From: Flammulina velutipes
Taxonomy: Eukaryota > Basidiomycota > Agaricomycetes > Agaricales > Physalacriaceae
Assembly (NCBI GenBank): GCA_011800155.1
Contig: CM022376.1
Location: forward strand, 1,922,001-1,986,000
Direction of reading: 5' to 3'
Length of the DNA stretch: 64,000 nt
The notes beneath the pieces were generated by a model that worked only from the letters and a program-made list of their open reading frames with translations, did not search any database and was not told where the DNA came from. Positions 29,340 through 60,095 of the stretch are shown piece by piece (position 1 is the first letter of the stretch; the number at the start of each line of letters is the position of its first letter). Position numbers and translations under genes: made by a program.

Positions 29340-29719
29340 TCAATTTAGGCGCTTAGTGTCGGGCAATCCAAACTTGCACCCATCCCACACGACCTCGTTG
29401 GCTGAACGACTAACGTAGAATGATGACCTGGAGTGATTCGAGGCGATCCTGGCGGGGAGTGTCAGGGATAACGTCTTGTCTTGCTTTCGTGAATATCCAA
29501 CCAACGGAGGGCAGGCGGTATTTGCCCAAGTTGACACCAGCCTGTCCAAGAGATAAGTGGCAAGTAAAAGGAGAGTTCAAATGTACTTACCCTCGAGGGA
29601 AATCAGTGCTCAGCGCACGAGATTGGATGATGTTGGGATGGTTCGACTCTCTGATGACGCAATGAAGCCTCTGCCTCTATGCTTGGGGAGGTGGCTTTGC
29701 GTATTCCAATACGATCCGA
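29340..29719 (-). pseudogene. 3' fragment of the gene split by the retrotransposon inversion (other part at 45001-46122)
   Basis: Two exon pieces, 29591 to about 29675 and 29340-29541, joined by a 49-nt GT-AG intron; the frame runs through 'STWANTACPPLVGYSRKQDK' to a stop at 29340. The right edge (29716-29719, CCGA) abuts the retrotransposon and equals the 4 bp following the 3' LTR of the other, inverted element at 46119-46122. Joining across CCGA gives a plausible intron around the insertion point and a continued frame, so this is probably the 3' end of the NucA/NucB-like gene now 16 kb away. As it stands it has no start. Confidence 0.5.
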
Positions 29720-30510
29720 TGTACAGCCTGCACTTGGGCTGAGTGCAGAACTGATACTAAACATGGGTGTGGCGCACGATGGCGCCAGCGCCATATAGGT
29801 CGGAACGTGTGAACGCGCCATCCACGGCGCGTCCGCATTAGGAACATATGGCGCAGCACTTCACACGGCACAAGCATGGACGTTTCAGAACACGGAAGCT
29901 ACCGAACTAATCGATGGATTGCAACGATCGATAACGAGAAGATCCAGATCGATGGGAAGAGATTACACCAAGGCTGTGCGCCATGCATGGCGCCCAGGCA
30001 CCTTCGGGAATCTGGATGCCAAAGCCGACAGGAACGGAGAGAATTACCACCCTCGAAGAGTCATATCGCGAGGTGGTCTGACTCGACGCGACGGAACGCC
30101 AATCACATCACGGACTCAAACCCCGGATCGTCGCACGATCGCTCGATCAGGGTACATGACGCAGGCATCGAGAGGCCTAAGCGTAGAACTAGACGGAAGA
30201 GAAAGCCGACAGCGTACAGTATAAATACTGTAGCATGTCGTAGAAACACATAGATATAATTATCACCCCACAATATCAACACAGAAGCCCCTTGCAACTG
30301 TCGAGAGACTTTTGGAACCTATACTTTCGCGCACGTGTTAGTACTTCGACGAACGCGTACTTGGAAGCGCCACCGTCATCTGCGACAGCTCGCTGCCCGA
30401 CTTCTTCACCTACCAAGGTCTGCGACCTCGGTGCGCCAGAACAAGAGCAGGAATCCACCGGGTAGTCCCCTCAACATCACAACGAACTCAGACTCGTTAA
30501 GAGATCTATA
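29720..30510 (+). repeat. 5' LTR of copy 1 (791 bp)
   Basis: Identical in layout to the LTRs at 46123-46913 and 56709-57499 and 3 bp longer than that at 40302-41089. Starts TGTACAGCC and ends GATCTATA. Rich in GGCGC words near its left end. Carries G at the diagnostic position near 29928 (context TTGCAACGATCG), shared only with the 3' LTR of copy 2. Confidence 0.93.
30216..30231 (+). promoter_or_regulatory. LTR TATA box inside an inverted repeat
   Basis: ACAGTAT-AA-ATACTGT: a TATAAATA-like box centred in two 7-bp arms that are reverse complements. Present in all four LTRs at the same place. The likely core promoter of the element, with the transcript start expected some tens of bases downstream. 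Confidence 0.55.
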
Positions 30511-30512
30511 TC

Positions 30513-30530
30513 TGGAGCCCACCGCGAGGG
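30513..30530 (+). other. primer-binding site
   Basis: TGGAGCCCACCGCGAGGG starts 2 nt after the 5' LTR. The leading TGG pairs with a tRNA 3' CCA; I could not assign the tRNA. The same sequence flanks the 5' LTR of copy 2 (56689-56706, minus strand). Confidence 0.65.
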
Positions 30531-30720
30531 GATACTACAACAAGGATCCCATTTGTTCTTCCGAACACTTTCCTTGTCGTCGCGAGACAAAGGAGTCTAG
30601 GAATCAACCGAGGGTCGGACTCTGGCTGGAGGAAAGAGGCCGAGAGAGAGCAGCGGCAGATTCGCGAAGAAAGTTCGTACAACCGAAGACCCCGAGGACA
30701 GAGGAGAGCCAGTAAACCCG

Positions 30721-33261
30721 TTGACTCCGGTGCAAGAAGATTTGGACATCGACTTTACTGCCCTCACCTTACAACCCTTCGACTTCACGGTACCCACGAC
30801 CGCGAGACCACCTGGAACAACAATTCCACCTACAAATCCATTCCTGGCGCATCAAGCCAGAAACCAAGGCCGAGGAGACAACCCCGCGCCTACCAATACA
30901 CCTACCAACCCACCAACCAACAATACACCTACACCCAACATGTCTAACAAAACGATGCCGGGAAGGGGAAACAAAAGTGCCCCCTCCTTTACGGAAAATC
31001 CGAAAGACCTGATGGACTACCTTGAAGACGTGAAAAACCTTTGTGTGGAACATGGGAAGAAGGACGACGCGGACTGGATCCAGTACGCCCTGTACTATCT
31101 ACCAGCAGAAGCACGAGAGTACTGGCGCCGTATCCCAGAAGCAAAGGATGTGACATCCGTGCTAGGAGTCATAACCAAGGCAACATGGGACGCCTTCGTA
31201 CAGGCGGTGCTCAACAAGTACCCAGGAGCAAGGGAGAAAGGACGATACGAATTATCGGACTTACAGGACGCATCGGACCAGCGCCATCTGGCGCCACCTC
31301 AGGACCTACACACCCTAGGAGAATATACGCGGACATTCGAGAGGATTGGGTTAGCTCTCAAGGAAGAGAGTGCGGTTTCGGACCCCGAGCTCGCGCGCCT
31401 GTTCGAGCGCGGCTTGGGAGAAGCCTTGAAAGGAATGGTTAAGAGGCGCTTGGAAATCAAATTCCCAGACCATCCTCCAACTAGGCCTCATAAGCTCGCC
31501 GACCTCATATCAGCATCTGAGTTCTGTCTCACTGGCACCTCTACGTTTATCGCCAACCAGAAAGCGGGCGTAAAAGAACATAGCGTCAAAATCGAAGGAT
31601 TTGAACCAGCGGCTGTGGTACAAGCGGTACTACAAGCGCTGACTCTACAAGGAGTATCGACGGGACAGAACAAGAATGGACCAGGTAACGCTCAAGGACC
31701 ACAACCACAAAGGAACCCACAAGCGAATGGCGGAAACGTGAAATCCACGAGTACGCAAAGGTTCGAGGAATCAACCAGGCGAAATCAGTTCCAACCTAGA
31801 TGTTTCTGCGGAGGAACCGAATGCAGGAGCTGGAACGTTTGTCCAGTACATCGGAAAGCGGTCGAAGACAAAGTAGTCTTGATCTCTCCAGGTGGAAGGA
31901 CCACGTTATGGGACGGATCCAGGGACTTCCCAAGGGGAGAAGGATCGCTGTACGACCGTATCGTGCAGTGGAACCTGAAAAATCCGCATCTCAAACCAAC
32001 GGGACAACCAGAAGGGAAGGCTTTCCTACTGGAAGTGACTCGACCAGGGGGAGGAGGATCGAGGATACCGCCTTCCTCCACCTTTCTCAGCAACGAGATT
32101 ATCACCGAACAACCTGAACAGTTTTGGAACGCTACGTTGAACCTTAACCAGAAGGAAAACACGGGGCCGGGAAACAACTACAAAGGACCGCCAATGCCGC
32201 CAGGCAAACGAATGGCATTTCGAGGAGTAGAGATACCAAAGACGACGTGGAAGAAACCTCCATTTGGGGTGGACCCCAAGGCAGCTCACGATGCAGCGCC
32301 CGGACCGAACCTTCCACCAGGATACGTCTTGCCTAAACAAGCGCAGCAGACGAAGCCTACCGTTACTGCCGCTCCATCAGCACCTAAGCCACAACAGGTT
32401 CAGCAAAAAGGAAATCCGCAGATCGGATCAAGGAACCCTTTTCGGGCCGACGATCAACAATATCGTACCCAATTAGGACCGGGCCTGAACGAAAAGGAAT
32501 CTAGCGATAGGGTCTTCGACACTATACTAGGAGGATCGTCCACTTTGTCGAACAAAGACTTACTGGCCGTAGCACCGGAGATTAGGAAACGCATCAAGGA
32601 AGTGGTATCAAACCGAAGGATATTACAAGATGTGGCGCAAACGGGAATGCTCGCCATCGAGGACGATGACGAGGAACCGCTCTCAGAAGAAAACTTGGAA
32701 TCCGTGGAAGCGGGGGAATTGATCGACGCATTCTATCAATCACTCGCGGACCAAGGGGTGATCGTCGGCGCGGAAAGTCTGGCTTTACGCGCGATCACTC
32801 CGGTGATCGATCACAAGTACGAGGTGGAAGCAATCTTGGACGAAGGGGCGCAACTAGTGGCAATGTCAGAAGAAGTGTGGGAGCACGTCGGACTGCCATT
32901 GGACACCTCAACAAGAATTCAAGTCCAGTCTGCCAACAAAGGTGTTGAGTCTGCACTGGGGGTTTGCCGGAACGTACCTTTCACTATCGGAAACGACCTT
33001 ACGATATTCTTGCAAGTCCACGTTCTACGAGGAGTCGCCTACGACATTCTACTAGGACGACCTTTCGGCGTACTTACCGAAAGTGTTACCAGGAACTACA
33101 TCGACGGAAAACAAACCATTACTCTCAGGGACCCTAACTCGGAACGGACAATAGCGATTCCGACGCATAAGAAAGGCGTACCGAGATTCTCTGCACCACG
33201 GGAACACGAATTGGACTCACCACATATTCATACGGCTCGCGCCAACACACACGACCAATGA
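30721..33261 (+). CDS. gag: Gag-protease polyprotein, copy 1
   Basis: Open frame of about 846 codons ending at 33261. There is no ATG at its left end; the first in-frame ATG is at 30940, and the frame stays open upstream to about 30600, so initiation may be at 30940, at a non-AUG codon, or after splicing from an upstream ATG. A Pro/Thr/Asn-rich start is followed by a capsid-like helical region, a Cys/His cluster (CFCGGTECRSWNVCPVH) in place of a classic zinc knuckle, and a retropepsin-like domain with the catalytic motif LDEGAQ at about residue 705 (DEG instead of DTG/DSG) and ILLGRPF downstream. The stop overlaps the pol ATG as ATGA. Confidence 0.85.
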   Translation: MTPVQEDLDIDFTALTLQPFDFTVPTTARPPGTTIPPTNPFLAHQARNQGRGDNPAPTNTPTNPPTNNTPTPNMSNKTMPGRGNKSAPSFTENPKDLMDYLEDVKNLCVEHGKKDDADWIQYALYYLPAEAREYWRRIPEAKDVTSVLGVITKATWDAFVQAVLNKYPGAREKGRYELSDLQDASDQRHLAPPQDLHTLGEYTRTFERIGLALKEESAVSDPELARLFERGLGEALKGMVKRRLEIKFPDHPPTRPHKLADLISASEFCLTGTSTFIANQKAGVKEHSVKIEGFEPAAVVQAVLQALTLQGVSTGQNKNGPGNAQGPQPQRNPQANGGNVKSTSTQRFEESTRRNQFQPRCFCGGTECRSWNVCPVHRKAVEDKVVLISPGGRTTLWDGSRDFPRGEGSLYDRIVQWNLKNPHLKPTGQPEGKAFLLEVTRPGGGGSRIPPSSTFLSNEIITEQPEQFWNATLNLNQKENTGPGNNYKGPPMPPGKRMAFRGVEIPKTTWKKPPFGVDPKAAHDAAPGPNLPPGYVLPKQAQQTKPTVTAAPSAPKPQQVQQKGNPQIGSRNPFRADDQQYRTQLGPGLNEKESSDRVFDTILGGSSTLSNKDLLAVAPEIRKRIKEVVSNRRILQDVAQTGMLAIEDDDEEPLSEENLESVEAGELIDAFYQSLADQGVIVGAESLALRAITPVIDHKYEVEAILDEGAQLVAMSEEVWEHVGLPLDTSTRIQVQSANKGVESALGVCRNVPFTIGNDLTIFLQVHVLRGVAYDILLGRPFGVLTESVTRNYIDGKQTITLRDPNSERTIAIPTHKKGVPRFSAPREHELDSPHIHTARANTHDQ

Positions 33262-36200
33262 TGATTATGCAAGAAGACGAACAAACAGGGCTTGTTATAA
33301 CGGTTACACACAGGAACGGCATCGGATCTAGGACACCTCACATCGGAAAGCTTCTGGAAGGACCACAAACCTTCGAAGATTGGGAAAGTATACCAGGATA
33401 CGGAATATCTATTTTAGGATTTACAGGGGAAGTATTGGAAGAGGCCGTACAGACGGATGGCGCAGCAACATTGGCGCAGAAGGCATTCGTTCTGGCTGCG
33501 GCGCTCTACGCGGACACTTGTACCCCGACCAAAAGCGACTCATCGCGTCCATTGGGAGTTCCAAAGGCGCGAAGTCATGGAAGGGGTGGAATGGCTGTGA
33601 TATTGGATACGAAAGCGCCGGTCGCTGTGTTTGCAGGAAAGAAATACAAAAAGGTCGCGAACAGGATCAAACCAGTCGCCACCACTCTACCAGAGGACTT
33701 CAGGATAGTCAGGAACATCGTGGGGAACCCTCTGGAAACCTTACCCGTACTACCCGTGCGCCCGCCACACTTCGAGCCACGGGGACGATACACTCTGGAA
33801 AGGAAAAAGATCATCGACGACTTGCATCCCGAGGGATTTCTCTGGCCAGAAGAGAGGAAGTTGATGCATCACTTTATGGCGCTACACGAAAAAGGATTCG
33901 CTTGGGACGAAACGGAAAAGGGACACTTTCGGGAAGACTTCTTCCCGCCGGTAAACATGGGAATAACAGAACATATTCCTTGGGTCAATAGGAACATGCC
34001 GATACCACCTGGGATATACGACGAAGTCATTCGCATCGTTAGGGAGAAGGTCGCGTCCGGAGCGTACGAGCCATCAAGCTCTTCCTACCGATCACGCTGG
34101 TTCACGGTACTCAAGAAGGACGGGAAATCCTTGCGGATTGTACACGACCTACAGCCTCTGAACGCGGTCACTATACGCGATAGTGGGATGTTACCGTTCG
34201 TCGAAACGCTGGCGGAGTCATTTGCTGGGCGCGCATGTTATGGAGTTCTGGATCTCTTTGTGGCGTTCGATCAAAGAGGACTTGCGCAGCCGTCTAGGGA
34301 TTATACGACTTTCCAGACACCGTTAGGCACCTTTCGACTCACGAAGCTACCAATGGGATGGACGAATAGTGTACCCATTTTACATGGGGACGTCACCTAC
34401 GCATTGCAGGACGAAATACCGGAATTCACAATACCTTTTATGGATGACGCAGGTATTCGAGGACCACCTACAAGATACGAGACCAAAGACGGAGGGTACG
34501 AGACGATTGAAGGAAACGAGGGGATACGGAGATTCGTTTGGGAGCATTTTCAGGCGCTCGGACGGATCGTCCAGAGGATTTGGTACATTGGATGTACTTG
34601 GAGCGGGAAAAAGGCTTTCCTTTGCGTTCCAGAAGCCATGCTTGTTGGACACAAGTGTACCTACGCAGGGAGGGAACCCGACGAAACGAAGATGGAGAAG
34701 GTGAGGAACTGGGGACCATGCAGGGACCTCACGGATGTACGAGCATTCATGGGGACCGTGGGCCTCATGAGGGTGTTCATATGGAACTTCGCGGGTTTAT
34801 CTAGGCCTCTAGTGGACTTGACGAAGAAGGATGCCGAATTCTATTGGGGACCAGAACAACAGGAGGCGCAGGACGAGCTGAAAGCCGCGATGCTAAATTC
34901 ACCTGCATTACGCCCTTTGGACTACCACTCGGGCGCACCTATAATTCTATGCGTAGATTCAAGCGTTATCGCGATTGGCTACGCTCTCTTCCAGGAAGAC
35001 GAAGAGGACGCACGCTTGCGGTACCCAAACCGTTTTGGATCTATGGCATTGAATCCCAGGGAAACCAACTACAGTCAGCCAAAACTGGAGTTATACGGAC
35101 TCTACAGGGCTCTGAAAGCGGTATCCATGTACATCATCGGAGCTAGGAATCTGGTCGTAGAAGTGGACGCCACAGCTATTAAGGGAATGATCAACAATCC
35201 TGATCTGAACCCGAACGCCACAATAAACCGATGGGTCGCAGGTGTCCTGCTATTTACCTTCAAGCTGGTACACGTTCCGGGGATTCGTCACGGGGTAGAT
35301 GGTCTATCTCGTCGGCGACCGTTTCCTGGAGAGGAGTTGGAGGAGGACGACGAAGATTGGGTGGATAGGCATTACGGTTTCCTTCAGGTAATAGCGTCGG
35401 CGCACGTGGAACCTGAAGCAACCGTTTGTGAGGTACTGTTGAGGGAGCTGGTGGAAGTCCCGGACTACTACGACGAGTTAAATCCGAACATCCAGCCAGA
35501 CGCCACACCGGAGATTCCCAGGTCGAAGAAACATATGGCGCAGGATGAGCGCCTTGTGCAAATCCTGCGTTTCTTGGATAAATTGGAAATACCGGAGAGG
35601 ATGGGAGAGAAGGAGAGGAAGAGGTTCATCAAATACGCAACGGGTTTCTTTCGAAGGGAAAGTGACCTGTGGCGCAGGATGGAAAACGGGAAGCATCAAC
35701 TAGTGGTCAAGCCACCAGCTCGACTTGGGATTTTACGATCGGCGCATGACAGATTGGGACACAAAGGAACGTTCTCAGTCCGCCATACCGTACAGATTCG
35801 ATTCTGGTGGCCGGGACTGTTAAACGACATCAAGTGGTATCTATCGACATGTCACGAGTGTCAGCTGCGACGCACGCAGCACTGGCATATTCCACCGGTC
35901 GTAGCGGAACCAGCACCTTTGTTTGCGAAAGCATATATCGACACCTTTTTCATGCCACCTTCAAACGGTTTCAAATACTTCGTACACGCGAGGTGTTCTC
36001 TAACGGCGTACCCCGAATTCCGGATGCTCAGGAAGGAGAACGAAAACACTCTAGCAGCTTTCATATTCGAGGAGCTCATATGTCGATGGGGATCGCTTAG
36101 GGAAATCGTGACGGATAATGGACAAGCGTTTATTGCTGCAATGGACCGACTATCTCGACAATACGGAGTGAAACACATCAGGATTTCTGGCTACAACTCT

Positions 36201-36932
36201 CAGGCAAACGGTATCATCGAAAACAGGCATTACGATGTTCGGGAGGGTCTATTCAAATTAGCCAAAGGAAACGAATCCAAGTGGTCGGAAGGGACATTCG
36301 CCATGATGTGGGCAGAGAGAGTTACTATCTCCCGTGTTATGCACATGAGCCCCTACCGAGCTGCGACAGGAGCGGAACCTCTGCTACCTCTGGACTTTGT
36401 GCAAGCAACCTGGTTAACTACGCCGTTCAGTGGTATAGTTTCCCACGGTGATGTCATCGTGCAAAGAGCCATGGATTTATGGAACAGGGAGAAGGAGATG
36501 GAGAAGCTGAAAGAAGACGTTTGGAAGTCTAGAGTGGACGCCGCAAAGCGTTGGGAGAAGGAGCACCAAAACCGAGTTGTGGATTTCGATTTCAAACGTG
36601 GCGATCTCGTACTACTGGAAAATTCTAAAGGACGAAAGGGACTTCAAGACAAGATGCAAGCCCGCTACTTTGGACCCCTTGTGGTACTATTCAGGACGAA
36701 AGGAGGCGCCTACCAGCTTTGCGAACTATCTGGCACAAGACTCGCTAACACGGTAGCGGCGCGACGTGTCATGAAATATCTGGCGCGGGAGCGGATATCA
36801 TTGCCTTGGTACTACACGGGAGCTTTGACTGATGAGGAGACGAAGCGCTTAATGGAGAGCGACGAGAAGGGGAGTAAAATGGGAGTTTTTCAACAAGTTG
36901 GGGGGAGCGCCATTTCTGGCGCACGGATATGA
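33258..36932 (+). CDS. pol: Pol polyprotein (RT, RNase H, integrase), copy 1
   Basis: 1224 codons, intact. Reverse transcriptase occupies roughly residues 240-430, with LDLFVAFD and the catalytic FMDD (394-397, replacing YxDD). RNase H begins near 560 with ILCVDSSVIAIGYALF and continues with the PKLELYG and VVEVDATA acidic residues. Integrase has the HHCC zinc domain (HDRLGHKG .. CHECQ, about 830-875) and DDE residues in YIDTFF, VTDNGQAF and GIIENRH. No chromodomain is visible at the C-terminus. Translation probably follows gag by termination-reinitiation at ATGA (33258-33261), unless spliced or reached by another mechanism. Confidence 0.92.
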   Translation: MMIMQEDEQTGLVITVTHRNGIGSRTPHIGKLLEGPQTFEDWESIPGYGISILGFTGEVLEEAVQTDGAATLAQKAFVLAAALYADTCTPTKSDSSRPLGVPKARSHGRGGMAVILDTKAPVAVFAGKKYKKVANRIKPVATTLPEDFRIVRNIVGNPLETLPVLPVRPPHFEPRGRYTLERKKIIDDLHPEGFLWPEERKLMHHFMALHEKGFAWDETEKGHFREDFFPPVNMGITEHIPWVNRNMPIPPGIYDEVIRIVREKVASGAYEPSSSSYRSRWFTVLKKDGKSLRIVHDLQPLNAVTIRDSGMLPFVETLAESFAGRACYGVLDLFVAFDQRGLAQPSRDYTTFQTPLGTFRLTKLPMGWTNSVPILHGDVTYALQDEIPEFTIPFMDDAGIRGPPTRYETKDGGYETIEGNEGIRRFVWEHFQALGRIVQRIWYIGCTWSGKKAFLCVPEAMLVGHKCTYAGREPDETKMEKVRNWGPCRDLTDVRAFMGTVGLMRVFIWNFAGLSRPLVDLTKKDAEFYWGPEQQEAQDELKAAMLNSPALRPLDYHSGAPIILCVDSSVIAIGYALFQEDEEDARLRYPNRFGSMALNPRETNYSQPKLELYGLYRALKAVSMYIIGARNLVVEVDATAIKGMINNPDLNPNATINRWVAGVLLFTFKLVHVPGIRHGVDGLSRRRPFPGEELEEDDEDWVDRHYGFLQVIASAHVEPEATVCEVLLRELVEVPDYYDELNPNIQPDATPEIPRSKKHMAQDERLVQILRFLDKLEIPERMGEKERKRFIKYATGFFRRESDLWRRMENGKHQLVVKPPARLGILRSAHDRLGHKGTFSVRHTVQIRFWWPGLLNDIKWYLSTCHECQLRRTQHWHIPPVVAEPAPLFAKAYIDTFFMPPSNGFKYFVHARCSLTAYPEFRMLRKENENTLAAFIFEELICRWGSLREIVTDNGQAFIAAMDRLSRQYGVKHIRISGYNSQANGIIENRHYDVREGLFKLAKGNESKWSEGTFAMMWAERVTISRVMHMSPYRAATGAEPLLPLDFVQATWLTTPFSGIVSHGDVIVQRAMDLWNREKEMEKLKEDVWKSRVDAAKRWEKEHQNRVVDFDFKRGDLVLLENSKGRKGLQDKMQARYFGPLVVLFRTKGGAYQLCELSGTRLANTVAARRVMKYLARERISLPWYYTGALTDEETKRLMESDEKGSKMGVFQQVGGSAISGARI
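36894..36907 (+). other. internal polypurine tract, copy 1
   Basis: CAAGTTGGGGGGAG at the end of pol, identical over 14 nt to the tract next to the 3' LTR (40287-40300). This is where the PPT of a standard Ty3 element would lie. The 3.4-kb antisense module lies between the two tracts. Confidence 0.75.
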
Positions 36933-37576
36933 AATCTGGAAAATCAAGATCAAGACAAAATTTTTGTTGGGGGAAGGACTATCGACTCTCGAATCGATAT
37001 AATAACCCACATGTGTACCTACAATACAGTGGCACGTCATTCGTTAAACATCGGGACCGAATTACGACAGGCGCCACTACCACCGAACAATCTACCTAAC
37101 ACAACCTACCTGCGAAAGACACCAACTGGCGATCGATCGAACCACCCATGAACGACATGGACCTACACCTATCACCATACGCGGAAAACACAAGATATCT
37201 TTTGGAGATCGCGTGCGCCACCGAGGTAGCGCGGTAACAATTGCACCTATAGCAATTCTTGGAGCCACTGGATTAGCCACTCAGTGTGCCTGGAAGGGAA
37301 GATCGGAGGGACGCCAACGATCTCCTAGCTGGACTTGCTATGGTACCGGACCAGGAAGGGCAACACCGCCTAAACACGCCGGATGCAAAAGAAACCTGGA
37401 CTTCAGCGTAATGGGAAACGCAAGGATTAACGGAAAATCCTAGTCACACACAAATTGGAACAGCGGTATCGAATTATACGGGGAAAAAACTACGAAATAA
37501 GGAAAATCAAAATAATCTAAATACGACGCCACGATACCCAAATATGTCTACCGGACTCCCATCAAACGGCACGGAA

Positions 37577-38382
37577 CTACGGGGCCTCGGAGGGCCGGAA
37601 CTGGAGGAGGTCGGAGAGGTGGAGGGAGGAAGAATGGGATTGAGCCTCGAGCTCGCGGAGGGATTGGGCAGTAGCCCGGAGATGCTGGGAGATGGCCTCG
37701 ACGCGATCGGCGCGGTGGCGAAGGTCGACGACGTATTGGGACAGGACGTCGGCTCCCTCGTCGAACCATGAGTTTGGCGTATACGACAGGCTGCGAGTTA
37801 GGCGATGATGGGGGAACCAGGGACTAATTGGACTATCAGGATGCAAGGAATAGAGAAGGAAGAAAGGAGAACGCACGGGGGTGAGAAGGCGGGGAGACCG
37901 TTCGGGTCGGGGCCTGAAGGACATTTTCTACGACCCAGCAGGACCAACCGGATGGGAGGGGCCAGGACCCAGCGGACGCGACGGTGGACGGAATGGGGGA
38001 AAAACAGAAGGGTTGTCGTAGGAGGTGAAAGGGGAACCGGTTCATGGAGAACATAACGGTGGTGTCGTACGAATGGCTCGCAAGCTGCAGGGCAGCGCGA
38101 ACCGAATCGAAGGCGGGATGGTGGATGACTTCGGCAATTTGGACATTGGACAAACCTTGGGTCATCGCCACCTACACGCGATGAACACGGCTCGATGGAC
38201 CTACCAAAAAAAAAAAAGAAACGATAAATTGGACGTACCCATTCGCCGTACAGAAGAGGAAAACGATTGGGAATCTCGGAGGACCCCTGCCAAACCAACT
38301 CCAGACTATTCTCTACTAGTCGTTGCGCACGCTCGCCGTCTAACGGAAACGAAAAGGATACATTGAAGCTGGTCGACGACAT
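37577..38382 (-). pseudogene. antisense gene B of the retrotransposon, copy 1 (frameshifted)
   Basis: Runs against the element. Exon 38239-38382 starts with ATG; a 67-nt GT-AG intron with a long T tract leads into an exon starting at 38171 (VAMTQGLSNVQIAEVI..), then a probable second intron and a last exon with a helix-forming stretch (WFDEGADVLSQYVVDLRHRA..) ending at 37577. A run of five C here, against six in copy 2, puts the last exon out of frame. No known domain; the C-terminal part looks like a coiled coil. Coding-like conservation and introns on the antisense strand argue for a host-derived or independently expressed gene. Confidence 0.5.
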
Positions 38383-38917
38383 TGTACTATGACTTTACAG
38401 GACGAAGTTACGCGTGGCGGATTTAAGTGGAACATTGGACCAGGGTTCAAACACGTCCAACGAATCGGAAGATGCCGACGAACTCTATCAAGGGAAATCT
38501 GCCAAAGAAGAGGATCGGACACCAAAGCTTACTGGAATCGAAGCACGGAGAACTCCCGACATTGGAAGCCAAGTACCCGAAACTGGACAAGAACATACCA
38601 CCGTGTACTCTGGACACGGGACGATCATTGCGTTGCACAGCCTGTACTGATGAAGGGTAGTGATGACGCACTTGCCTTTCTGGGACGTGCGGCCAGGGAA
38701 AGGAATTGGTCGTCGCGCGAACTATACCAAACTTGGACAAGATTGATGGATGGGATCGGCAACTCACGCTTATAATCACGAACACGAGGAGGAAGGACGC
38801 GAAGGGAACGGAGCCGAGGCGCGTACACTGGAAAAACTTCGGAAAAATAGGATACATCAACTGCATTCGCTTTCAAACTACGGGCGCGAACCTACACGAC
38901 AACAAACAGGAAAACCA

Positions 38918-40081
38918 CTACTCTAAGTCGACGTCAAACTCCTTTTTGACATAATCAGCATGGTCCCTGTATTCCGCCCCCTCGTCATCACTTTCGCTCA
39001 TGGATTCGCGAGTGGAATCGCTAGTTTGGACGTCCACGAGGGGCGGAATGGCGTTGTCGTCCGCGACCACTCCCGGAACGGGACTCCAAGGGGGAGGACT
39101 GGTAGGATGGTACGCGAGTGGGGACAGGAGTCGGGAAGAACCCCCTGTAGTCGAAGGCGCCACAAGTGCATTGGCCCCGGTGGCCCGGGAGGTTGGAAGA
39201 GTAGTTGGAGGCGAGACGTGTCGAGCCGGAAGGCGCGCTCCTAGGTCTCTCCGGGACCCCCGACGTGCGCGCTGGTCGCCCCCATGGCTCTGGCGCCGTC
39301 GACCCAAGTACTGGATCTCGGGGTCCTCGACCCTCCCTGACCTGGTTATGCGCTGGGTAAACGCGACTCTGGGAGTAGGACTGTAGCGGGGGAGTGGGGG
39401 CGGAGATTGGAGGGGACGAGATGGAAGATGCGACAGCCTGACCGACGGCCTGACTGAGGATCGCCAATTGTCGACGGCTGAGGAAGAGACCGCTCGATTC
39501 TGGACAACGGAGGTCATGAAGGCTGCGACTGGCTCGAAGGACGACGTACCCGACGCCGGGTGGGATAACGGGCGGCTCCTAAGCGAAGGAGGACGTTCCT
39601 GCATGTCGGGAATGCACCCCCATCCACGGAGACAGCGGAGACGCGTGCTATCCTGCGCACGCTGCGACAGCGCCTCTGCATCCAAATCCCACCTGGGATT
39701 GTTTACGATCAAAAGGAAGATACGGTGGCTCCACATGAAGTTCACGATTTGGGTGAGCTGGCGCTGAGCGAGGACGTCGAGAGCGGTGCAATCCAAGTGG
39801 GGATGACCAGCAGCAACGAGGGCTGCGTTCAGCTCGCGAACGTCCGCCTGGGAAATGGTTAGGAAGGAGGAGAAGATGAGTCGAGAGAAGGGACTTGCAT
39901 ATTGGCTGCGGAAGATGGAGAGGTAGTCCTCAAGCTGCCTAGGGGACAGCTCCAAGCCAAAATGTTCATGCGCCTTGACAGTGCTAAGGGCGCATTTGAC
40001 GAGACGGTCAAGCTCATCGTAGCGCTGCTGAACAACTGGGTTCTCGATTGGGGAAGAAGCGGCGTTGGGAGTGTTGGACAT
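38918..40081 (-). CDS. antisense gene A of the retrotransposon, copy 1
   Basis: Uninterrupted frame of 387 codons from the ATG at 40081 (context accATGtcc), antisense to gag-pol. A TATA box (CTATAAAG, 40157-40164 on the reverse strand) lies about 80 bp upstream. The N-terminal ~150 residues look globular and helical (QRYDELDRLVKCALSTVKAH.., LEDYLSIFRSQY); the rest is Ser/Pro/Arg-rich, ending in an acidic tail. No recognised family; it might be a Gag-like or regulatory protein, but nothing in it proves that. Conserved at full length in copy 2 (47134-48297) with a substitution of one residue seen. Confidence 0.65.
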   Translation of the reverse strand: MSNTPNAASSPIENPVVQQRYDELDRLVKCALSTVKAHEHFGLELSPRQLEDYLSIFRSQYASPFSRLIFSSFLTISQADVRELNAALVAAGHPHLDCTALDVLAQRQLTQIVNFMWSHRIFLLIVNNPRWDLDAEALSQRAQDSTRLRCLRGWGCIPDMQERPPSLRSRPLSHPASGTSSFEPVAAFMTSVVQNRAVSSSAVDNWRSSVRPSVRLSHLPSRPLQSPPPLPRYSPTPRVAFTQRITRSGRVEDPEIQYLGRRRQSHGGDQRARRGSRRDLGARLPARHVSPPTTLPTSRATGANALVAPSTTGGSSRLLSPLAYHPTSPPPWSPVPGVVADDNAIPPLVDVQTSDSTRESMSESDDEGAEYRDHADYVKKEFDVDLE

Positions 40082-40156
40082 GGTGGAAATTTTTTTCAGG
40101 CTTTGGGGCTTGAGATGGTAGCGTTGGCTGGGAAATTTTCCTATCCGCGCGGCCCT

Positions 40157-40164
40157 CTTTATAG
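40157..40164 (-). promoter_or_regulatory. TATA box of antisense gene A, copy 1
   Basis: CTATAAAG on the reverse strand, 76 bp upstream of the gene A ATG and followed by a GC-rich leader. Same arrangement at 47051-47058 in copy 2. Confidence 0.55.
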
Positions 40165-46913: not shown

Positions 46914-46914
46914 T

Positions 46915-49638: not shown

Positions 49639-50308
49639 TTCCGTGCCGTTTGATGGGAGTCCGGTAGACATATTTGGGTATCGTGGCGTCGTATTTAGAT
49701 TATTTTGATTTTCCTTATTTCGTAGTATTTTCCCCGTATAATTCGATACCGCTGTTCCAATTTGTGTGTGACTAGGATTTTCCGTTAATCCTTGCGTTTC
49801 CCATTACGCTGAAGTCCAGGTTTCTTTTGCATCCGGCGTGTTTAGGCGGTGTTGCCCTTCCTGGTCCGGTACCATAGCAAGTCCAGCTAGGAGATCGTTG
49901 GCGTCCCTCCGATCTTCCCTTCCAGGCACACTGAGTGGCTAATCCAGTGGCTCCAAGAATTGCTATAGGTGCAATTGTTACCGCGCTACCTCGGTGGCGC
50001 ACGCGATCTCCAAAAGATATCTTGTGTTTTCCGCGTATGGTGATAGGTGTAGGTCCATGTCGTTCATGGGTGGTTCGATCGATCGCCAGTTGGTGTCTTT
50101 CGCAGGTAGGTTGTGTTAGGTAGATTGTTCGGTGGTAGTGGCGCCTGGTCGTAATTCGGTCCCGATGTTTAACGAATGACGTGCCACTGTATTGTAGGTA
50201 CACATGTGGGTTATTATATCGATTCGAGAGTCGATAGTCCTTCCCCCAACAAAAATTTTGTCTTGATCTTGATTTTCCAGATTTCATATCCGTGCGCCAG
50301 AAATGGCG

Positions 50309-50322
50309 CTCCCCCCAACTTG
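50309..50322 (-). other. internal polypurine tract, copy 2
   Basis: CAAGTTGGGGGGAG on the minus strand just after pol, the counterpart of 36894-36907. Confidence 0.75.
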
Positions 50323-50366
50323 TCGAAAAAACTCCCATTTTACTCCCCCTTCTCGTCGCTCTCCAT

Positions 50367-53300
50367 TCAGCGCTTCGTCTCCTCATCAGTCAAAGCTCCC
50401 TTGTAGTACCAAGGCAATGATATCCGCTCCCGCGCCAGATATTTCATGACACGTCGCGCCGCTACCGTGTTAGCGAGTCTTGTGCCAGATAGTTCGCCAA
50501 GCTGGTAGGCGCCTCCTTTCGTCCTGAATAGTACCACAAGGGGTCCAAAGTAGCGGGCTTGCATCTTGTCTTGAAGTCCCTTTCGTCCTTTAGAATTTTC
50601 CAGTAGTACGAGATCGCCACGTTTGAAATCGAAATCCACAACTCGGTTTTGGTGCTCCTTCTCCCAACGCTTTGCGGCGTCCACTCTAGACTTCCAAACG
50701 TCTTCTTTCAGCTTCTCCATCTCCTTCTCCCTGTTCCATAAATCCATGGCTCTTTGCACGATGACATCACCGTGGGAAACTATACCACTGAACGGCGTAG
50801 TTAACCAGGTTGCTTGCACAAAGTCCAGAGGTAGCAGAGGTTCCGCTCCTGTCGCAGCTCGGTAGGGGCTCATGTGCATAACACGGGAGATAGTAACTCT
50901 CTCTGCCCACATCATGGCGAATGTCCCTTCCGACCACTTGGATTCGTTTCCTTTGGCTAATTTGAATAGACCCTCCCGAACATCGTAATGCCTGTTTTCG
51001 ATGATACCGTTTGCCTGAGAGTTGTAGCCAGAAATCCTGATGTGTTTCACTCCGTATTGTCGAGATAGTCGGTCCATTGCAGCAATAAACGCTTGTCCAT
51101 TATCCGTCACGATTTCCCTAAGCGATCCCCATCGACATATGAGCTCCTCGAATATGAAAGCTGCTAGAGTGTTTTCGTTCTCCTTCCTGAGCATCCGGAA
51201 TTCGGGGTACGCCGTTAGAGAACACCTCGCGTGTACGAAGTATTTGAAACCGTTTGAAGGTGGCATGAAAAAGGTGTCGATATATGCTTTCGCAAACAAA
51301 GGTGCTGGTTCCGCTACGACCGGTGGAATATGCCAGTGCTGCGTGCGTCGCAGCTGACACTCGTGACATGTCGATAGATACCACTTGATGTCGTTTAACA
51401 GTCCCGGCCACCAGAATCGAATCTGTACGGTATGGCGGACTGAGAACGTTCCTTTGTGTCCCAATCTGTCATGCGCCGATCGTAAAATCCCAAGTCGAGC
51501 TGGTGGCTTGACCACTAGTTGATGCTTCCCGTTTTCCATCCTGCGCCACAGGTCACTTTCCCTTCGAAAGAAACCCGTTGCGTATTTGATGAACCTCTTC
51601 CTCTCCTTCTCTCCCATCCTCTCCGGTATTTCCAATTTATCCAAGAAACGCAGGATTTGCACAAGGCGCTCATCCTGCGCCATATGTTTCTTCGACCTGG
51701 GAATCTCCGGTGTGGCGTCTGGCTGGATGTTCGGATTTAACTCGTCGTACGAGTAGTCCGGGACTTCCACCAGCTCCCTCAACAGTACCTCACAAACGGT
51801 TGCTTCAGGTTCCACGTGCGCCGACGCTATTACCTGAAGGAAACCGTAATGCCTATCCACCCAATCTTCGTCGTCCTCCTCCAACTCCTCTCCAGGAAAC
51901 GGTCGCCGACGAGATAGACCATCTACCCCGTGACGAATCCCCGGAACGTGTACCAGCTTGAAGGTAAATAGCAGGACACCTGCGACCCATCGGTTTATTG
52001 TGGCGTTCGGGTTCAGATCAGGATTGTTGATCATTCCCTTAATAGCTGTGGCGTCCACTTCTACGACCAGATTCCTAGCTCCGATGATGTACATGGATAC
52101 CGCTTTCAGAGCCCTGTAGAGTCCGTATAACTCCAGTTTTGGCTGACTGTAGTTGGTTTCCCTGGGATTCAATGCCATAGATCCAAAACGGTTTGGGTAC
52201 CGCAAGCGTGCGTCCTCTTCGTCTTCCTGGAAGAGAGCGTAGCCGATCGCGATAACGCTTGAATCTACGCATAGAATTATAGGTGCGTCCGAGTGGTAGT
52301 CCAAAGGGCGCAATGCAGGTGAATTTAGCATCGCGGCTTTCAGCTCGTCCTGCGCCTCCTGTTGTTCTGGTCCCCAATAGAATCCGGCATCCTTCTTCGT
52401 CAAGTCCACTAGAGGCCTAGATAAACCCGCGAAGTTCCATATGAACACCCTCATGAGGCCCACGGTCCCCATGAATGCTCGTACATCCGTGAGGTCCCTG
52501 CATGGTCCCCAGTTCCTCACCTTCTCCATCTTCGTTTCGTCGGGTTCCCTCCCTGCGTAGGTACACTTGTGTCCAACAAGCATGGCTTCTGGAACGCAAA
52601 GGAAAGCCTTTTTCCCGCTCCAAGTACATCCAATGTACCAAATCCTCTGGACGATCCGTCCGAGCGCCTGAAAATGCTCCCAAACGAATCTCCGTATCCC
52701 CTCGTTTCCTTCAATCGTCTCGTACCCTCCGTCTTTGGTCTCGTATCTTGTAGGTGGTCCTCGAATACCTGCGTCATCCATAAAAGGTATTGTGAATTCC
52801 GGTATTTCGTCCTGCAATGCGTAGGTGACGTCCCCATGTAAAATGGGTACACTATTCGTCCATCCCATTGGTAGCTTCGTGAGTCGAAAGGTGCCTAACG
52901 GTGTCTGGAAAGTCGTATAATCCCTAGACGGCTGCGCAAGTCCTCTTTGATCGAACGCCACAAAGAGATCCAGAACTCCATAACATGCGCGCCCAGCAAA
53001 TGACTCCGCCAGCGTTTCGACGAACGGTAACATCCCACTATCGCGTATAGTGACCGCGTTCAGAGGCTGTAGGTCGTGTACAATCCGCAAGGATTTCCCG
53101 TCCTTCTTGAGTACCGTGAACCAGCGCGATCGGTAGGAAGAGCTTGATGGCTCGTACGCTCCGGACGCGACCTTCTCCCTAACGATGCGAATGACTTCGT
53201 CGTATATCCCAGGTGGTATCGGCATGTTCCTATTGACCCAAGGAATATGTTCTGTTATTCCCATGTTTACCGGCGGGAAGAAGTCTTCCCGAAAGTGTCC

Positions 53301-53962
53301 CTTTTCCGTTTCGTCCCAAGCGAATCCTTTTTCGTGTAGCGCCATAAAGTGATGCATCAACTTCCTCTCTTCTGGCCAGAGAAATCCCTCGGGATGCAAG
53401 TCGTCGATGATCTTTTTCCTTTCCAGAGTGTATCGTCCCCGTGGCTCGAAGTGTGGCGGGCGCACGGGTAGTACGGGTAAGGTTTCCAGAGGGTTCCCCA
53501 CGATGTTCCTGACTATCCTGAAGTCCTCTGGTAGAGTGGTGGCGACTGGTTTGATCCTGTTCGCGACCTTTTTGTATTTCTTTCCTGCAAACACAGCGAC
53601 CGGCGCTTTCGTATCCAATATCACAGCCATTCCACCCCTTCCATGACTTCGCGCCTTTGGAACTCCCAATGGACGCGATGAGTCGCTTTTGGTCGGGGTA
53701 CAAGTGTCCGCGTAGAGCGCCGCAGCCAGAACGAATGCCTTCTGCGCCAATGTTGCTGCGCCATCCGTCTGTACGGCCTCTTCCAATACTTCCCCTGTAA
53801 ATCCTAAAATAGATATTCCGTATCCTGGTATACTTTCCCAATCTTCGAAGGTTTGTGGTCCTTCCAGAAGCTTTCCGATGTGAGGTGTCCTAGATCCATG
53901 CCGTTCCTGTGTGTAACCGTTATAACAAGCCCTGTTTGTTCGTCTTCTTGCATAATCATCAT
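50367..53962 (-). pseudogene. pol: pol of copy 2, frameshifted
   Basis: Aligned with 33258-36932. After the ATG at 53962 a 2-nt deletion (copy 1 GGCATCGGATC, copy 2 GGCATGGATC near 53900) breaks the frame; from about 53786 the copy 1 frame is open again without ATG. Near the end TTA is TGA, removing the last ~22 residues. RT, RNase H and integrase motifs are all still readable. Confidence 0.85.
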
Positions 53963-56498
53963 TGGTCGTGTGTGTTGGCGCGAGCCGTATGAATATGTGG
54001 TGAGTCCAATTCGTGTTCCCGTGGTGCAGAGAATCTCGGTACGCCTTTCTTATGCGTCGGAATCGCTATTGTCCGTTCCGAGTTAGGGTCCCTGAGAGTA
54101 ATGGTTTGTTTTCCGTCGATGTAGTTCCTGTAACACTTTCGGTAAGTACGCCGAAAGGTCGTCCTAGTAGAATGTCGTAGGCGACTCCTCGTAGAACGTG
54201 GACTTGCAAGAATATCGTAAGGTCGTTTCCGATAGTGAAAGGTACGTTCCGGCAAACCCCCAGTGCAGACTCAACACCTTTGTTGGCAGACTGGACTTGA
54301 ATTCTTGTTGAGGTGTCCAATGGCAGTCCGACGTGCTCCCACACTTCTTCTGACATTGCCACTAGTTGCGCCCCTTCGTCCAAGATTGCTTCCACCTCGT
54401 ACTTGTGATCGATCACCGGAGTGATCGCGCGTAAAGCCAGACTTTCCGCGCCGACGATCACCCCTTGGTCCGCGAGTGATTGATAGAATGCGTCGATCAA
54501 TTCCCCCGCTTCCACGGATTCCAAGTTTTCTTCTGAGAGCGGTTCCTCGTCATCGTCCTCGATGGCGAGCATTCCCGTTTGCGCCACATCTTGTAATATC
54601 CTTCGGTTTGATACCACTTCCTTGATGCGTTTCCTAATCTCCGGTGCTACGGCCAGTAAGTCTTTGTTCGACAAAGTGGACGATCCTCCTAGTATAGTGT
54701 CGAAGACCCTATCGCTAGATTCCTTTTCGTTCAGGCCCGGTCCTAATTGGGTACGATATTGTTGATCGTCGGCCCGAAAAGGGTTCCTTGATCCGATCTG
54801 CGGATTTCCTTTTTGCTGAACCTGTTGTGGCTTAGGTGCTGATGGAGCGGCAGTGACGGTAGGCTTCGTCTGCTGCGCTTGTTTAGGCAAGACGTATCCT
54901 GGTGGAAGGTTCGGTCCGGGCGCTGCATCGTGAGCTGCCTTGGGGTCCACCCCAAATGGAGGTTTCTTCCACGTCGTCTTTGGTATCTCTACTCCTCGAA
55001 ATGCCATTCGTTTGCCTGGCGGCATTGGCGGTCCTTTGTAGTTGTTTCCCGGCCCCGTGTTTTCCTTCTGGTTAAGGTTCAACGTAGCGTTCCAAAACTG
55101 TTCAGGTTGTTCGGTGATAATCTCGTTGCTGAGAAAGGTGGAGGAAGGCGGTATCCTCGATCCTCCTCCCCCTGGTCGAGTCACTTCCAGTAGGAAAGCC
55201 TTCCCTTCTGGTTGTCCCGTTGGTTTGAGATGCGGATTTTTCAGGTTCCACTGCACGATACGGTCGTACAGCGATCCTTCTCCCCTTGGGAAGTCCCTGG
55301 ATCCGTCCCATAACGTGGTCCTTCCACCTGGAGAGATCAAGACTACTTTGTCTTCGACCGCTTTCCGATGTACTGGACAAACGTTCCAGCTCCTGCATTC
55401 GGTTCCTCCGCAGAAACATCTAGGTTGGAACTGATTTCGCCTGGTTGATTCCTCGAACCTTTGCGTACTCGTGGATTTCACGTTTCCGCCATTCGCTTGT
55501 GGGTTCCTTTGTGGTTGTGGTCCTTGAGCGTTACCTGGTCCATTCTTGTTCTGTCCCGTCGATACTCCTTGTAGAGTCAGCGCTTGTAGTACCGCTTGTA
55601 CCACAGCCGCTGGTTCAAATCCTTCGATTTTGACGCTATGTTCTTTTACGCCCGCTTTCTGGTTGGCGATAAACGTAGAGGTGCCAGTGAGACAGAACTC
55701 AGATGCTGATATGAGGTCGGCGAGCTTATGAGGCCTAGTTGGAGGATGGTCTGGGAATTTGATTTCCAAGCGCCTCTTAACCATTCCTTTCAAGGCTTCT
55801 CCCAAGCCGCGCTCGAACAGGCGCGCGAGCTCGGGGTCCGAAACCGCACTCTCTTCCTTGAGAGCTAACCCAATCCTCTCGAATGTCCGCGTATATTCTC
55901 CTAGGGTGTGTAGGTCCTGAGGTGGCGCCAGATGGCGCTGGTCCGATGCGTCCTGTAAGTCCGATAATTCGTATCGTCCTTTCTCCCTTGCTCCTGGGTA
56001 CTTGTTGAGCACCGCCTGTACGAAGGCGTCCCATGTTGCCTTGGTTATGACTCCTAGCACGGATGTCACATCCTTTGCTTCTGGGATACGGCGCCAGTAC
56101 TCTCGTGCTTCTGCTGGTAGATAGTACAGGGCGTACTGGATCCAGTCCGCGTCGTCCTTCTTCCCATGTTCCACACAAAGGTTTTTCACGTCTTCAAGGT
56201 AGTCCATCAGGTCTTTCGGATTTTCCGTAAAGGAGGGGGCACTTTTGTTTCCCCTTCCCGGCATCGTTTTGTTAGACATGTTGGGTGTAGGTGTATTGTT
56301 GGTTGGTGGGTTGGTAGGTGTATTGGTAGGCGCGGGGTTGTCTCCTCGGCCTTGGTTTCTGGCTTGATGCGCCAGGAATGGATTTGTAGGTGGAATTGTT
56401 GTTCCAGGTGGTCTCGCGGTCGTGGGTACCGTGAAGTCGAAGGGTTGTAAGGTGAGGGCAGTAAAGTCGATGTCCAAATCTTCTTGCACCGGAGTCAA
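53959..56498 (-). pseudogene. gag: gag-protease of copy 2, frameshifted near the 3' end
   Basis: Matches copy 1 until near 54133, where one C is missing (GTTACAGG against GTTACCAGG), so the frame ends at 54066 after 810 codons; the original frame continues in a shifted register to 53959. Capsid-like part, Cys/His cluster and LDEGAQ protease motif are intact. As in copy 1, no ATG at the open left end. Confidence 0.85.
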
Positions 56499-56688
56499 CG
56501 GGTTTACTGGCTCTCCTCTGTCCTCGGGGTCTTCGGTTGTACGAACTTTCTTCGCGAATCTGCCGCTGCTCTCTCTCGGCCTCTTTCCTCCAGCCAGAGT
56601 CCGACCCTCGGTTGATTCCTAGACTCCTTTGTCTCGCGACGACAAGGAAAGTGTTCGGAAGAACAAATGGGATCCTTGTTGTAGTATC

Positions 56689-56706
56689 CCCTCGCGGTGG
56701 GCTCCA
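56689..56706 (-). other. primer-binding site, copy 2
   Basis: Same 18 nt as in copy 1, adjacent to the 5' LTR. Confidence 0.65.
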
Positions 56707-56708
56707 GA

Positions 56709-57499
56709 TATAGATCTCTTAACGAGTCTGAGTTCGTTGTGATGTTGAGGGGACTACCCGGTGGATTCCTGCTCTTGTTCTGGCGCACCGAGGTCGCAGA
56801 CCTTGGTAGGTGAAGAAGTCGGGCAGCGAGCTGTCGCAGATGACGGTGGCGCTTCCAAGTACGCGTTCGTCGAAGTACTAACGCGTGCGCGAAAGTATAG
56901 GTTCCAAAAGTCTCTCGACAGTTGCAAGGGGCTTCTGTGTTGATATTGTGGGGTGATAATTATATCTATGTGTTTCTACGACATGCTACAGTATTTATAC
57001 TGTACGCTGTCGGCTTTCTCTTCCGTCTAGTTCTACGCTTAGGCCTCTCGATGCCTGCGTCATGTACCCTGATCGAGCGATCGTGCGACGATCCGGGGTT
57101 TGAGTCCGTGATGTGATTGGCGTTCCGTCGCGTCGAGTCAGACCACCTCGCGATATGACTCTTCGAGGGTGGTAATTCTCTCCGTTCCTGTCGGCTTTGG
57201 CATCCAGATTCCCGAAGGTGCCTGGGCGCCATGCATGGCGCACAGCCTTGGTGTAATCTCTTCCCATCGATCTGGATCTTCTCGTTATCGATTGTTGCAA
57301 TCCATCGATTAGTTCGGTAGCTTCCGTGTTCTGAAACGTCCATGCTTGTGCCGTGTGAAGTGCTGCGCCATATGTTCCTAATGCGGACGCGCCGTGGATG
57401 GCGCGTTCACACGTTCCGACCTATATGGCGCTGGCGCCGTCGTGCGCCACACCCATGTTTAGTATCAGTTCTGCACTCAGCCCAAGTGCAGGCTGTACA
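56709..57499 (-). repeat. 5' LTR of copy 2 (791 bp)
   Basis: Carries A at the diagnostic site (minus strand TTGCAACAATCG), shared with the 3' LTR of copy 1. Preceded in element orientation by TGGG (complement of 57500-57503). Confidence 0.93.
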
Positions 57500-60095
57500 C
57501 CCAAATCCCTGAAAGTCGGACACGTAGGCCAGAGCTTTGGTTTTGACATATTGCACATGTTGGGCCGCACTCAAGAACTCTGCCTTTGGATATTCAAGAC
57601 TATGAACATCCATGGAGTCGATGGGATTGGGTGAGCCATTATGAATCCATTTAATGAAGTCCTGGCCTTCGGGAAAAATAATGCGATCCTCTACGAGAAA
57701 GGTGCGCTGTGGTGCGACACCGTTGATCGTCTTGCCATCATCAGGTTTATATATGACACAGACGCCAGCCTGAACATATTGAAAGCGAGGAATAGACAGT
57801 ATTGGAGGTGCATGGTCTTGAACATTATCAGTACGATGCAGGATTTTATTTTGAAAATTTCAAACCTTCTTGCGATAAGAGAGAATCGATCCAGTCGTAA
57901 ACAAGCTGCATTAGAAGTGACGCCCAATAGTGTGTATTGGCCTCTGTCATGATCATTTGGAATTCGATAGTTCCATCATAACGATTGAATGCGTGACTTT
58001 TGGAGGGACTTTAAGAATCAATGTGAGTAATAATAGACATAGAATAGATGAGACATACTTTTTCTTGTAGGGTACTAGACCCTTGTAAACCTGCTTGAGA
58101 CAGATGTCCTCTCCTTTGTTGAGAGCGGCTAGACCAGGATAACACTTTAAGGTATCGGGATGTGGCATCAAGTGCACTTGTGCAAGATGACAAGTCTTGA
58201 AAGTGCCAGCGCCAAGAATTGCCTCTCGACGGAAGTCAACTTCCAAGTAACAGGCACTAGATATTTTGTGAGTTTCCAAGCTCCATTTAACCTTGTCGGG
58301 ATCGTTCAAAGCCTCTTGAAGAGTTACAATAGGAATAATGGCCAGAGATACATTGGTGAATGAGGTACGAGTCACTGGTAAAAAGATTTAGTAGCAATAT
58401 ACGAAGGAGGAATATGAACTTGCATCGAGTTTCAGCTAAATTTCCGCCACCAGCAATGAGACCGTTTCGGAAAAAGGAACTGGGTGGTGACGACCAAGGA
58501 ATGGATTTCTTGCTGTTCGGTGGTGTTGTTGAGATGGCCAGAGATTCCTGACGAGAATGTTTAGAATGTGAGGTGATTTTGATGAGAAAAAACAAACACT
58601 GCGCTCGCGTTTAGAGGGCTTGGGGGATACTACCACGGGAGTATCGTGCTCGAATGGTGTCAGAGTATGATTATACTGTAATGGCGCCAGAGGTTCTTCA
58701 AAGTCAGAGGGATAGACAACCTCACGGGATTTTTGTCGTTTCTCTCGCTGACAAAAATGAGATAAAGGAAATGAGATCGCGTCAATAATTATACCTCTTG
58801 TTGAGCCTACAAAAGATGTCAGATCAAGAGTATAACCAAATAGGGACGTAAATACCAGCCAAGTTTCCTCTCCCTGCTGGAACTCTGACCACTGATCACT
58901 GTCCACAACAATCCGAAGGCGAACAAATTTGGTGGGACGTTTGAAGATGAAATGCTCTGGATTCTTTTTGTCCCGAACGAGCGCATACTGACGCAGATAT
59001 CCTCTCTGACTATCGCGCACAGTCGGCCCTTCTAAATCTATCCCATTGCCAGTCCTGCTCATCGTAAGACCGAAGTCATGAACTGAAAACTGTGAAGGTC
59101 GCCATGTGAAAGGAATATCACCCTGATACTTCTTCAGAGCAATGAGAGCGTATCTGACAGCGTCACGGACTACCTCCTTGAGTGGAGTATTGCAATCATA
59201 GTCGCGGTTGCTGTTCTCGAGTCTCTGAATAGCAAATGAGATAATGATGAAATGAGATAAATGAATACAGACGTTTAATTCAATGACTTTGTCTGACCCA
59301 AGATCACGATAGCCAATAGCATAAGTAACCCCAATTATCTCTCCACTAGGAGCATAGGCATTCCCTTGTTGGCGACTACGCTCTTCTGCATAAATATCAT
59401 GAGCCGCTGTATATCCAGTAGCACGTAGACGAGTATGGCCGTGAGAATGTCCTGAGGTATTATGCCCTCCGTAGATATTGACGACTGGTCCAGATCCCAT
59501 AGCTGTGACTTGTTCTTGACCATGAATTGGATCTATAATATAAGTGATCAGCCAACTATTCCAAAATAATGTTAGACATACTTTTGCGCTGAGCTTGATT
59601 GACTGAGTGAGCAATGGCTGCAGGATTAGGGCGTAGGGGACCTGGATTAGGACGAGGTGCATGAGGAAGTGGTAGGGGGGGAGGTGGCATGCGAGTATTG
59701 GCCCATGCTGGATCAGGGTATGAGTAAGTCGATGACTGAGGTGCGCTAGCCGGGACAGGACGTCGTTGACTCTGTTCTGCACGTCGTGCAGCTACAAGCA
59801 CAGTATAAATAATGATGATATTATAATTGAATAGGAACATACTATTAGTTGCTCGAGGAGCATAATCCAGCTCATGACAGCTGGTACAGACGATTCGTTG
59901 GCCTCCTTGACCATTACTGTAGATGTAATATTCATCACCAGCAGGAATAGCTGTGGTTTTGCCGCGACATTTACCAGGTCGACGACCACAAGTGATGACG
60001 GTGGTAGCAACTTGGGAAAAGCCAACACCAATAATACCTAGTGTGTCCATGAGAGTAGCAAGAAAAAAGAGACGCACACAAGTCTGATTTTGCAT
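57500..60095 (-). pseudogene. alpha-kinase gene, 5' part (interrupted; C-terminal exons at 41090-41330)
   Basis: Many-exon minus-strand gene. The N-terminus has a Cys-rich module (CGRRPGKCRGK .. VCTSCHELDY), then a Pro-rich region (PPPPLPLPHAPRPNP) and a long linker. The alpha-kinase (atypical, MHCK/EF2K-type) domain starts near 58270 with the nucleotide-binding ILGAGTFKTCHLAQ, continues through an ICLKQVYKG strand, HYWASLLMQLVYDWI and FLVEDRI, and ends in ALAYVSDFQGFG where the retrotransposon begins. The family normally continues with a terminal Gly-rich loop and zinc-binding CN..C; those are found at 41090-41330. Introns of about 45-50 nt lie near 57860, 58050, 58400, 58560, 58830, 59230, 59550 and 59820. 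In its current state the product would lack part of the catalytic core. Confidence 0.85.

Follow-up and report, generated by a model that had tools for sequence, protein, structure and literature searches.

Swapped target-site duplications point to a micro-inversion between two LTR retrotransposons inside a large DNA transposon of Flammulina velutipes

We analysed a 64,000-nucleotide stretch of the basidiomycete Flammulina velutipes (contig CM022376.1, here C9, positions 1922001-1986000; "the window"), in which two nearly identical long terminal repeat (LTR) retrotransposons stand in opposite orientation on either side of a short segment. Our reading, to which we give a probability of roughly 0.73, is that this segment was truly inverted in the organism by a crossover between the two elements. 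The inversion is a micro-inversion of about 5 kb, and it lies inside a larger DNA transposon. The assembly shows the inverted arrangement directly, whereas the crossover itself, as an event in the organism, we infer. Recombination between inverted LTR elements had been proposed in the original prediction, which was made from the window's letters, and is supported here by swapped target-site duplications, an LTR variant, the order of a sister locus on contig C3 and the closing of an alpha-kinase reading frame. Searches within the genome covered 38.1 Mb in 23 contigs, and homologues beyond it were sought through Pfam and solved structures.

In the history that we propose, an element A inserted at a CCGA site and an oppositely oriented element B at a TGGG site 5.0 kb from it, the same copy of a 15.5-kb DNA transposon receiving the two, as the duplications, the single-copy TGGG of the sister locus and one LTR variant show. 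A single homologous-recombination crossover between these inverted, 99.7%-identical elements would then have flipped the segment between them and swapped their outer halves, so that both present copies would be composed of one half from A and one from B, with every flank left beside the wrong partner. The copies of the host transposon, which now differ by 2-3%, would have diverged first, followed by the insertion of A and B and then by the inversion. The features concerned are as follows (window coordinates).

29720-41089, + strand: LTR retrotransposon copy 1, 11,370 bp (LTRs 29720-30510 and 40302-41089)
46123-57499, - strand: LTR retrotransposon copy 2, 11,377 bp (5' LTR 56709-57499, 3' LTR 46123-46913)
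29716-29719, + strand: CCGA preceding copy 1, assigned as the left half of the target duplication of original element A
46119-46122, - strand: CCGA (TCGG on the + strand) after copy 2, assigned as the displaced half of element A's duplication
41090-41093, + strand: TGGG after copy 1, assigned as the displaced half of element B's duplication
57500-57503, - strand: TGGG (CCCA on the + strand) before copy 2, assigned as the right half of element B's duplication
41090-46122, no strand: segment between the elements, 5,033 bp, inverted relative to C3

The target-site duplications carry the first part of the argument. As originally claimed, each element lacks a matching 4-bp flank of its own, and the match to the partner's flank is exact at all four positions: own flanks match in 0 of 2 cases and swapped flanks in 2 of 2. 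For comparison, we scored 40 LTR matches genome-wide, a lower bound given one further LTR at C1:2927238 that lies outside the set. Four of these are the window's own, and the other 36 were fetched with their flanks and sorted by position and strand, giving 15 two-LTR copies (30 LTRs), 3 solo LTRs and 3 unpaired LTRs that were set aside: L043, L011 (close to where a contig stops) and L038 (one end truncated). The two LTRs of a pair start 10.5-11.4 kb apart in 9 of the 15 copies and 14-38 kb apart in the remaining 6, which were assigned as nearest same-strand neighbours. Own flanks are identical over 4 bp in 15/15 two-LTR copies and 3/3 solo LTRs, including an inverted pair on C8 (1750140 on the + strand, 1810445 on the - strand).

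Elements can lose matching flanks by other routes, and the window pair might in principle reflect separate events, each duplication having disappeared through mutation or through exchange with other copies in the genome, with the cross-matches an accident. Common 4-mers do arise by chance or site preference, in 3 of 153 pairs of control copies. Against this, none of the 18 control copies has mismatched flanks, two random 4-mers from the window locus match with P = 0.0042, and an accidental double swap would have a probability of about 2e-5 (the product of the 4-mer match probabilities). The segment is moreover inverted relative to its C3 sister, and both breaks close upon rejoining. We consider such a coincidence extremely improbable, and the C3 order refutes it for practical purposes.

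The C3 comparison relies on the DNA transposon that hosts the two elements, whose window copy is bounded as follows.

20985-62262, no strand: copy of the host DNA transposon (26-bp inverted ends at 20985-21010 and 62237-62262)
20979-20984, + strand: GTAAAA, left 6-bp duplication of the host transposon
62263-62268, + strand: GTAAAA, right 6-bp duplication of the host transposon

The inverted repeat of the window copy is perfect over 26 bp (TATGGTTGACCTAAACGACATGCTCA), and the terminal sequences on C3 are identical to it. The C3 copy has the same inverted ends and a different 6-bp duplication, AACGAT, so the kinship of the C9 and C3 loci is not that of a plain duplication. The terminal 16-mer has four genome matches at up to one mismatch, exactly these four ends, and its backwards control has none. 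Judged by these ends, the window locus is a 15.5-kb DNA transposon, present in two copies in the genome, whose window copy later insertions have swollen to 41.3 kb.

The sister copy of window 20985-62262 spans C3:132265-147728 and contains neither retrotransposon. It is a paralogous copy rather than an allele, and its identity to the window is 97.5% over 2,688 bp and 96.6% over 2,261 bp on the left and 97.7% over 4,768 bp on the right. On C3, window 20985-29702 is followed by the segment in reverse and then by 57500-62262. The original prediction had called for comparison with an element-free relative and expected the left flank, the reversed segment and the right flank; at this paralogous copy that is the order found, and the refuting case, an element-free relative with the segment in its present orientation, is not what C3 presents. 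The segment is inverted in 5/5 DNA matches and 19/19 protein matches, the latter overlapping across frames and thus not forming, with the DNA matches, 24 independent tests. The TGGG site is single-copy on C3, where the window's flanks overlap by exactly the 4-mer, and the rejoined flanks are identical to C3 at 112 of 115 bases.

Within the segment, window 41325-45000 corresponds to C3:137600-142700 as a diverged island with sharp bounds, in which the four larger coding matches are 36-46% identical. This core holds open frames without a Pfam match, between flanks of about 97% DNA identity.

One breakpoint falls in a gene and the other in a gene fragment, which lie in the window as follows.

57500-60050, - strand: 5' part of an alpha-kinase gene, introns placed by eye
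41090-41330, + strand: 3' end of the same alpha-kinase gene, split off by the elements and the inversion
45088-46122, + strand: fragment of a gene akin to C3 genes, at the CCGA site; its 86-bp tandem repeat shifts the frame
29700-29719, - strand: last 20 bp of the CCGA-site gene fragment, at the other breakpoint

At the TGGG site, the two alpha-kinase pieces score 13.4 and 13.5 bits against PF02816 (cut-off 21.3) when taken separately, and 39.8 bits once they are joined and the last intron is taken out by eye. The first piece stops at profile position 145 and the second resumes at 148. The C3 paralogue (96% identical) reads through the TGGG site, the more distant paralogues (42-44%) on C8, C5 and C3:184k run on unbroken there, and an alignment to the solved structure 1ia9, which we take to be a TRPM7-type kinase, crosses it as well. 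Element B lies between two conserved aspartates of the kinase, and a His/Cys motif near the end of the protein, presumably its zinc ligands, is on the detached piece.

These continuities also bear on the direction of the change. The window's order might conversely be the ancestral one and that of the C3 sister the derived one; since the terminal 16-mer occurs in two host-transposon copies only, copy counting lends no support to either polarity. The C3 order, however, keeps the alpha-kinase whole, like the three diverged paralogues and the solved structure, and C3 makes its joins without the elements. We therefore give almost no credence to the reverse polarity.

The prediction that re-inversion rejoins two broken genes held in part. 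The alpha-kinase frame closes, as described; the other gene was already a fragment, with its frame-shifting 86-bp repeat. The CCGA site lies near the end of this fragment, which is related to genes at C3:2396k and C3:2442k, and when rejoined the site is 97.2% identical to C3:2396k over 214 bp across it, the likeness stopping 16 bp past the duplication. Because the 86-bp tandem repeat shifts the frame, the fragment was probably not working even before the inversion. The alpha-kinase, for its part, was first broken by the insertion of element B and not by the inversion: the elements lie across the gene whichever way the segment points, so that turning the segment back would leave the gene interrupted. 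A reversible gene switch is ruled out on the same ground, element B interrupting the alpha-kinase in both orientations.

The two retrotransposons align with 11,347 of 11,381 columns identical (99.7%), and several of the differences consist of one base more or less in a run. The LTRs measure 791 bp, except for the 3' LTR of copy 1 (788 bp); they start with TGTACA and finish with TCTATA, and a purine tract precedes the 3' LTR. Profile matches to the open frames fall, in order, to protease, RNase H and integrase families. The integrase zinc-binding domain scores above its cut-off and the rve integrase core itself below; among the element frames, RNase H families matched and no separate reverse transcriptase family did at E 0.001. 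From the order protease, RNase H, integrase, the copies are assigned to the Ty3/gypsy type (Metaviridae), whose likeness extends to LTRs of this kind starting with TG, the purine tract and the 4-bp duplications. They differ from that type in that their LTRs finish in TA, not CA, and in that an open frame of 434 aa runs antisense to the element in the stretch from pol to the 3' LTR (38918-40222 on the - strand; 46993-48297 on the + strand). All 36 genome matches to this frame lie within element copies, and 7 are full length without a stop.

Two local clusters of change were seen in the elements. Copy 2 has six private differences within 175 bp (50324-50498), for which no donor was found among 19 places scored genome-wide. 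The 3' LTR of copy 1 has a private 4-bp deletion and a small change at 40828-40865, and no donor for these lesions was found among 40 places scored.

If the elements exchanged halves, the two TGGG LTRs, namely copy 1's 3' LTR and copy 2's 5' LTR, would descend from one element. LTR column 207 is A in 3 of 39 aligned LTRs, and these are the two TGGG LTRs and L043, an unpaired LTR on C1. Variants present in exactly two LTRs serve as a yardstick: of 18 such variants, 16 are common to both LTRs of one copy, and 9 of the 15 control copies have at least one variant restricted to their own two LTRs. Summed LTR substitutions come to 6 (2+4) in the swapped pairing and 8 (7+1) in the present pairing, the 5 gap columns being identical either way; most of those counted come from the two lesions private to copy 1's 3' LTR. 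The crossover would be bounded, on sequence, to element positions 207-10789 and no finer.

Several observations weigh against a crossover in the organism. The swapped pairing of LTR variants is supported at one informative site, column 207, and the lesions in copy 1's 3' LTR are missing from its proposed partner LTR. No scorable internal difference between copies 1 and 2 groups any of the 11 other (partial) copies with either, which leaves no crossover trace there. The orientation of the segment's core is read from weaker matches than that of its ends. Finally, an assembler misled by a pair of 11.4-kb inverted repeats would flip the 5-kb segment on paper only, and such an artefact predicts the same swapped duplications, the same swapped LTR variant and the same gene breaks. 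In its favour, the repeats match at 99.7% over a great length, and their run-length differences may resemble long-read consensus errors. On the other side, all 15 other paired copies are joined to matching flanks, including the inverted pair on C8, and the densities of private substitutions in copies 1 and 2 (0.90 and 0.67 per kb) are ordinary beside those of nine other copies (0.67-2.81), so that the two do not look collapsed. We judge an assembly flip to be unlikely, though a serious contender, and continue to favour an inversion by crossover between the elements.

The host transposon has contents of its own. Close to its right end it carries an integrase gene that is divergent from the alpha-kinase gene, and this pairing recurs in the genome.

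60765-61336, + strand: integrase gene of the PF24764 type (matched exons), pointing away from the alpha-kinase gene
57500-61336 (window): divergent integrase/alpha-kinase pair
C3:142784-146802: divergent integrase/alpha-kinase pair
C3:183987-188303: divergent integrase/alpha-kinase pair
C5:2873735-2878021: divergent integrase/alpha-kinase pair
C8:1525059-1529428: divergent integrase/alpha-kinase pair

The integrase scores 27.9 bits against PF24764 (cut-off 26) with its exons joined by eye, one exon alone giving 20.4, below the cut-off. A divergent alpha-kinase gene stands at 5/5 integrase loci found (C9, C3:146k, C3:188k, C5:2877k and C8:1529k), the matched stretches lying 2.9-3.5 kb apart. 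For four further alpha-kinase loci (C7, C2, C4 and C8:29.7k), no integrase is among the matches listed. Inverted ends were demonstrated at 2 of the 5 integrase loci, the window and its C3 sister copy; no inverted end was found in the 601 bases inspected at the C8 locus. We tentatively suggest, at somewhat less than even odds, a kind of large basidiomycete transposon with the divergent alpha-kinase and the rve-type integrase as its conserved core, in which the kinase would belong to the transposon's machinery, perhaps as a regulator of the integrase or of host chromatin, and not to its cargo.

Among 29 open frames of at least 100 aa lying wholly inside the transposon, only the integrase and the alpha-kinase came near a family, and no other frame scored above a family cut-off. 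These frames, 28 from the C3 copy and the longest taken as its window counterpart, are unspliced, and genes of short exons could be missed among them. None of the 29 matched a family B DNA polymerase, a trait of Maverick/Polinton elements. A 716-aa open frame at 21455-23605 (- strand), with a 726-aa frame at the matching C3 place, has no Pfam match above cut-off and no match to a solved structure. Two insertions of 1.47-1.48 kb (23672-25140 and 25278-26761) are missing on C3; their middle parts are related, their inverted ends are short (CATCAGGAAA, CATCTGGAAA), and the first has at least 42 matches in the genome. DUF6535 genes are also among the profile matches and, together with the style of the introns, fit a basidiomycete host.

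The mechanism of the inversion is a textbook one and well known. What the window adds is an unusually full fungal record of ectopic recombination, with both breakpoints, the swapped duplications, the pre-insertion site and the ancestral order all available from one genome. The host locus is less expected and may matter more than the inversion: the integrase/alpha-kinase pair occurs at all five integrase loci found, two of them inside a bounded transposon, and this pairing opens to experiment the question of whether transposons can have a protein kinase among their working parts.

Among known systems, Starships are giant elements of filamentous ascomycetes, which the host transposon resembles in being large and carrying other genes; it differs in its rve-type integrase and its basidiomycete host, and a tyrosine recombinase (DUF3435) captain gene found no match in any of the 29 unspliced frames scanned. 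IS3EU-like elements are DNA transposons with terminal inverted repeats, an rve-type integrase and 6-bp duplications. The host transposon is similar in its 26-bp inverted ends, its 6-bp duplications at two sites and the integrase core gene by its right end, a likeness in features, and it differs in its 15.5-kb length and its further genes, including the divergent alpha-kinase. Transposon-mediated inversions have been diagnosed by swapped target-site duplications before, as with Galileo in Drosophila buzzatii, and the window is alike in having inverted copies at the breakpoints and exchanged duplications that re-inversion restores. It differs from the Galileo case in that the elements are LTR retrotransposons in a fungus, in that about 5 kb is inverted inside another transposon, and in that a paralogue elsewhere in this genome supplies the ancestral order.

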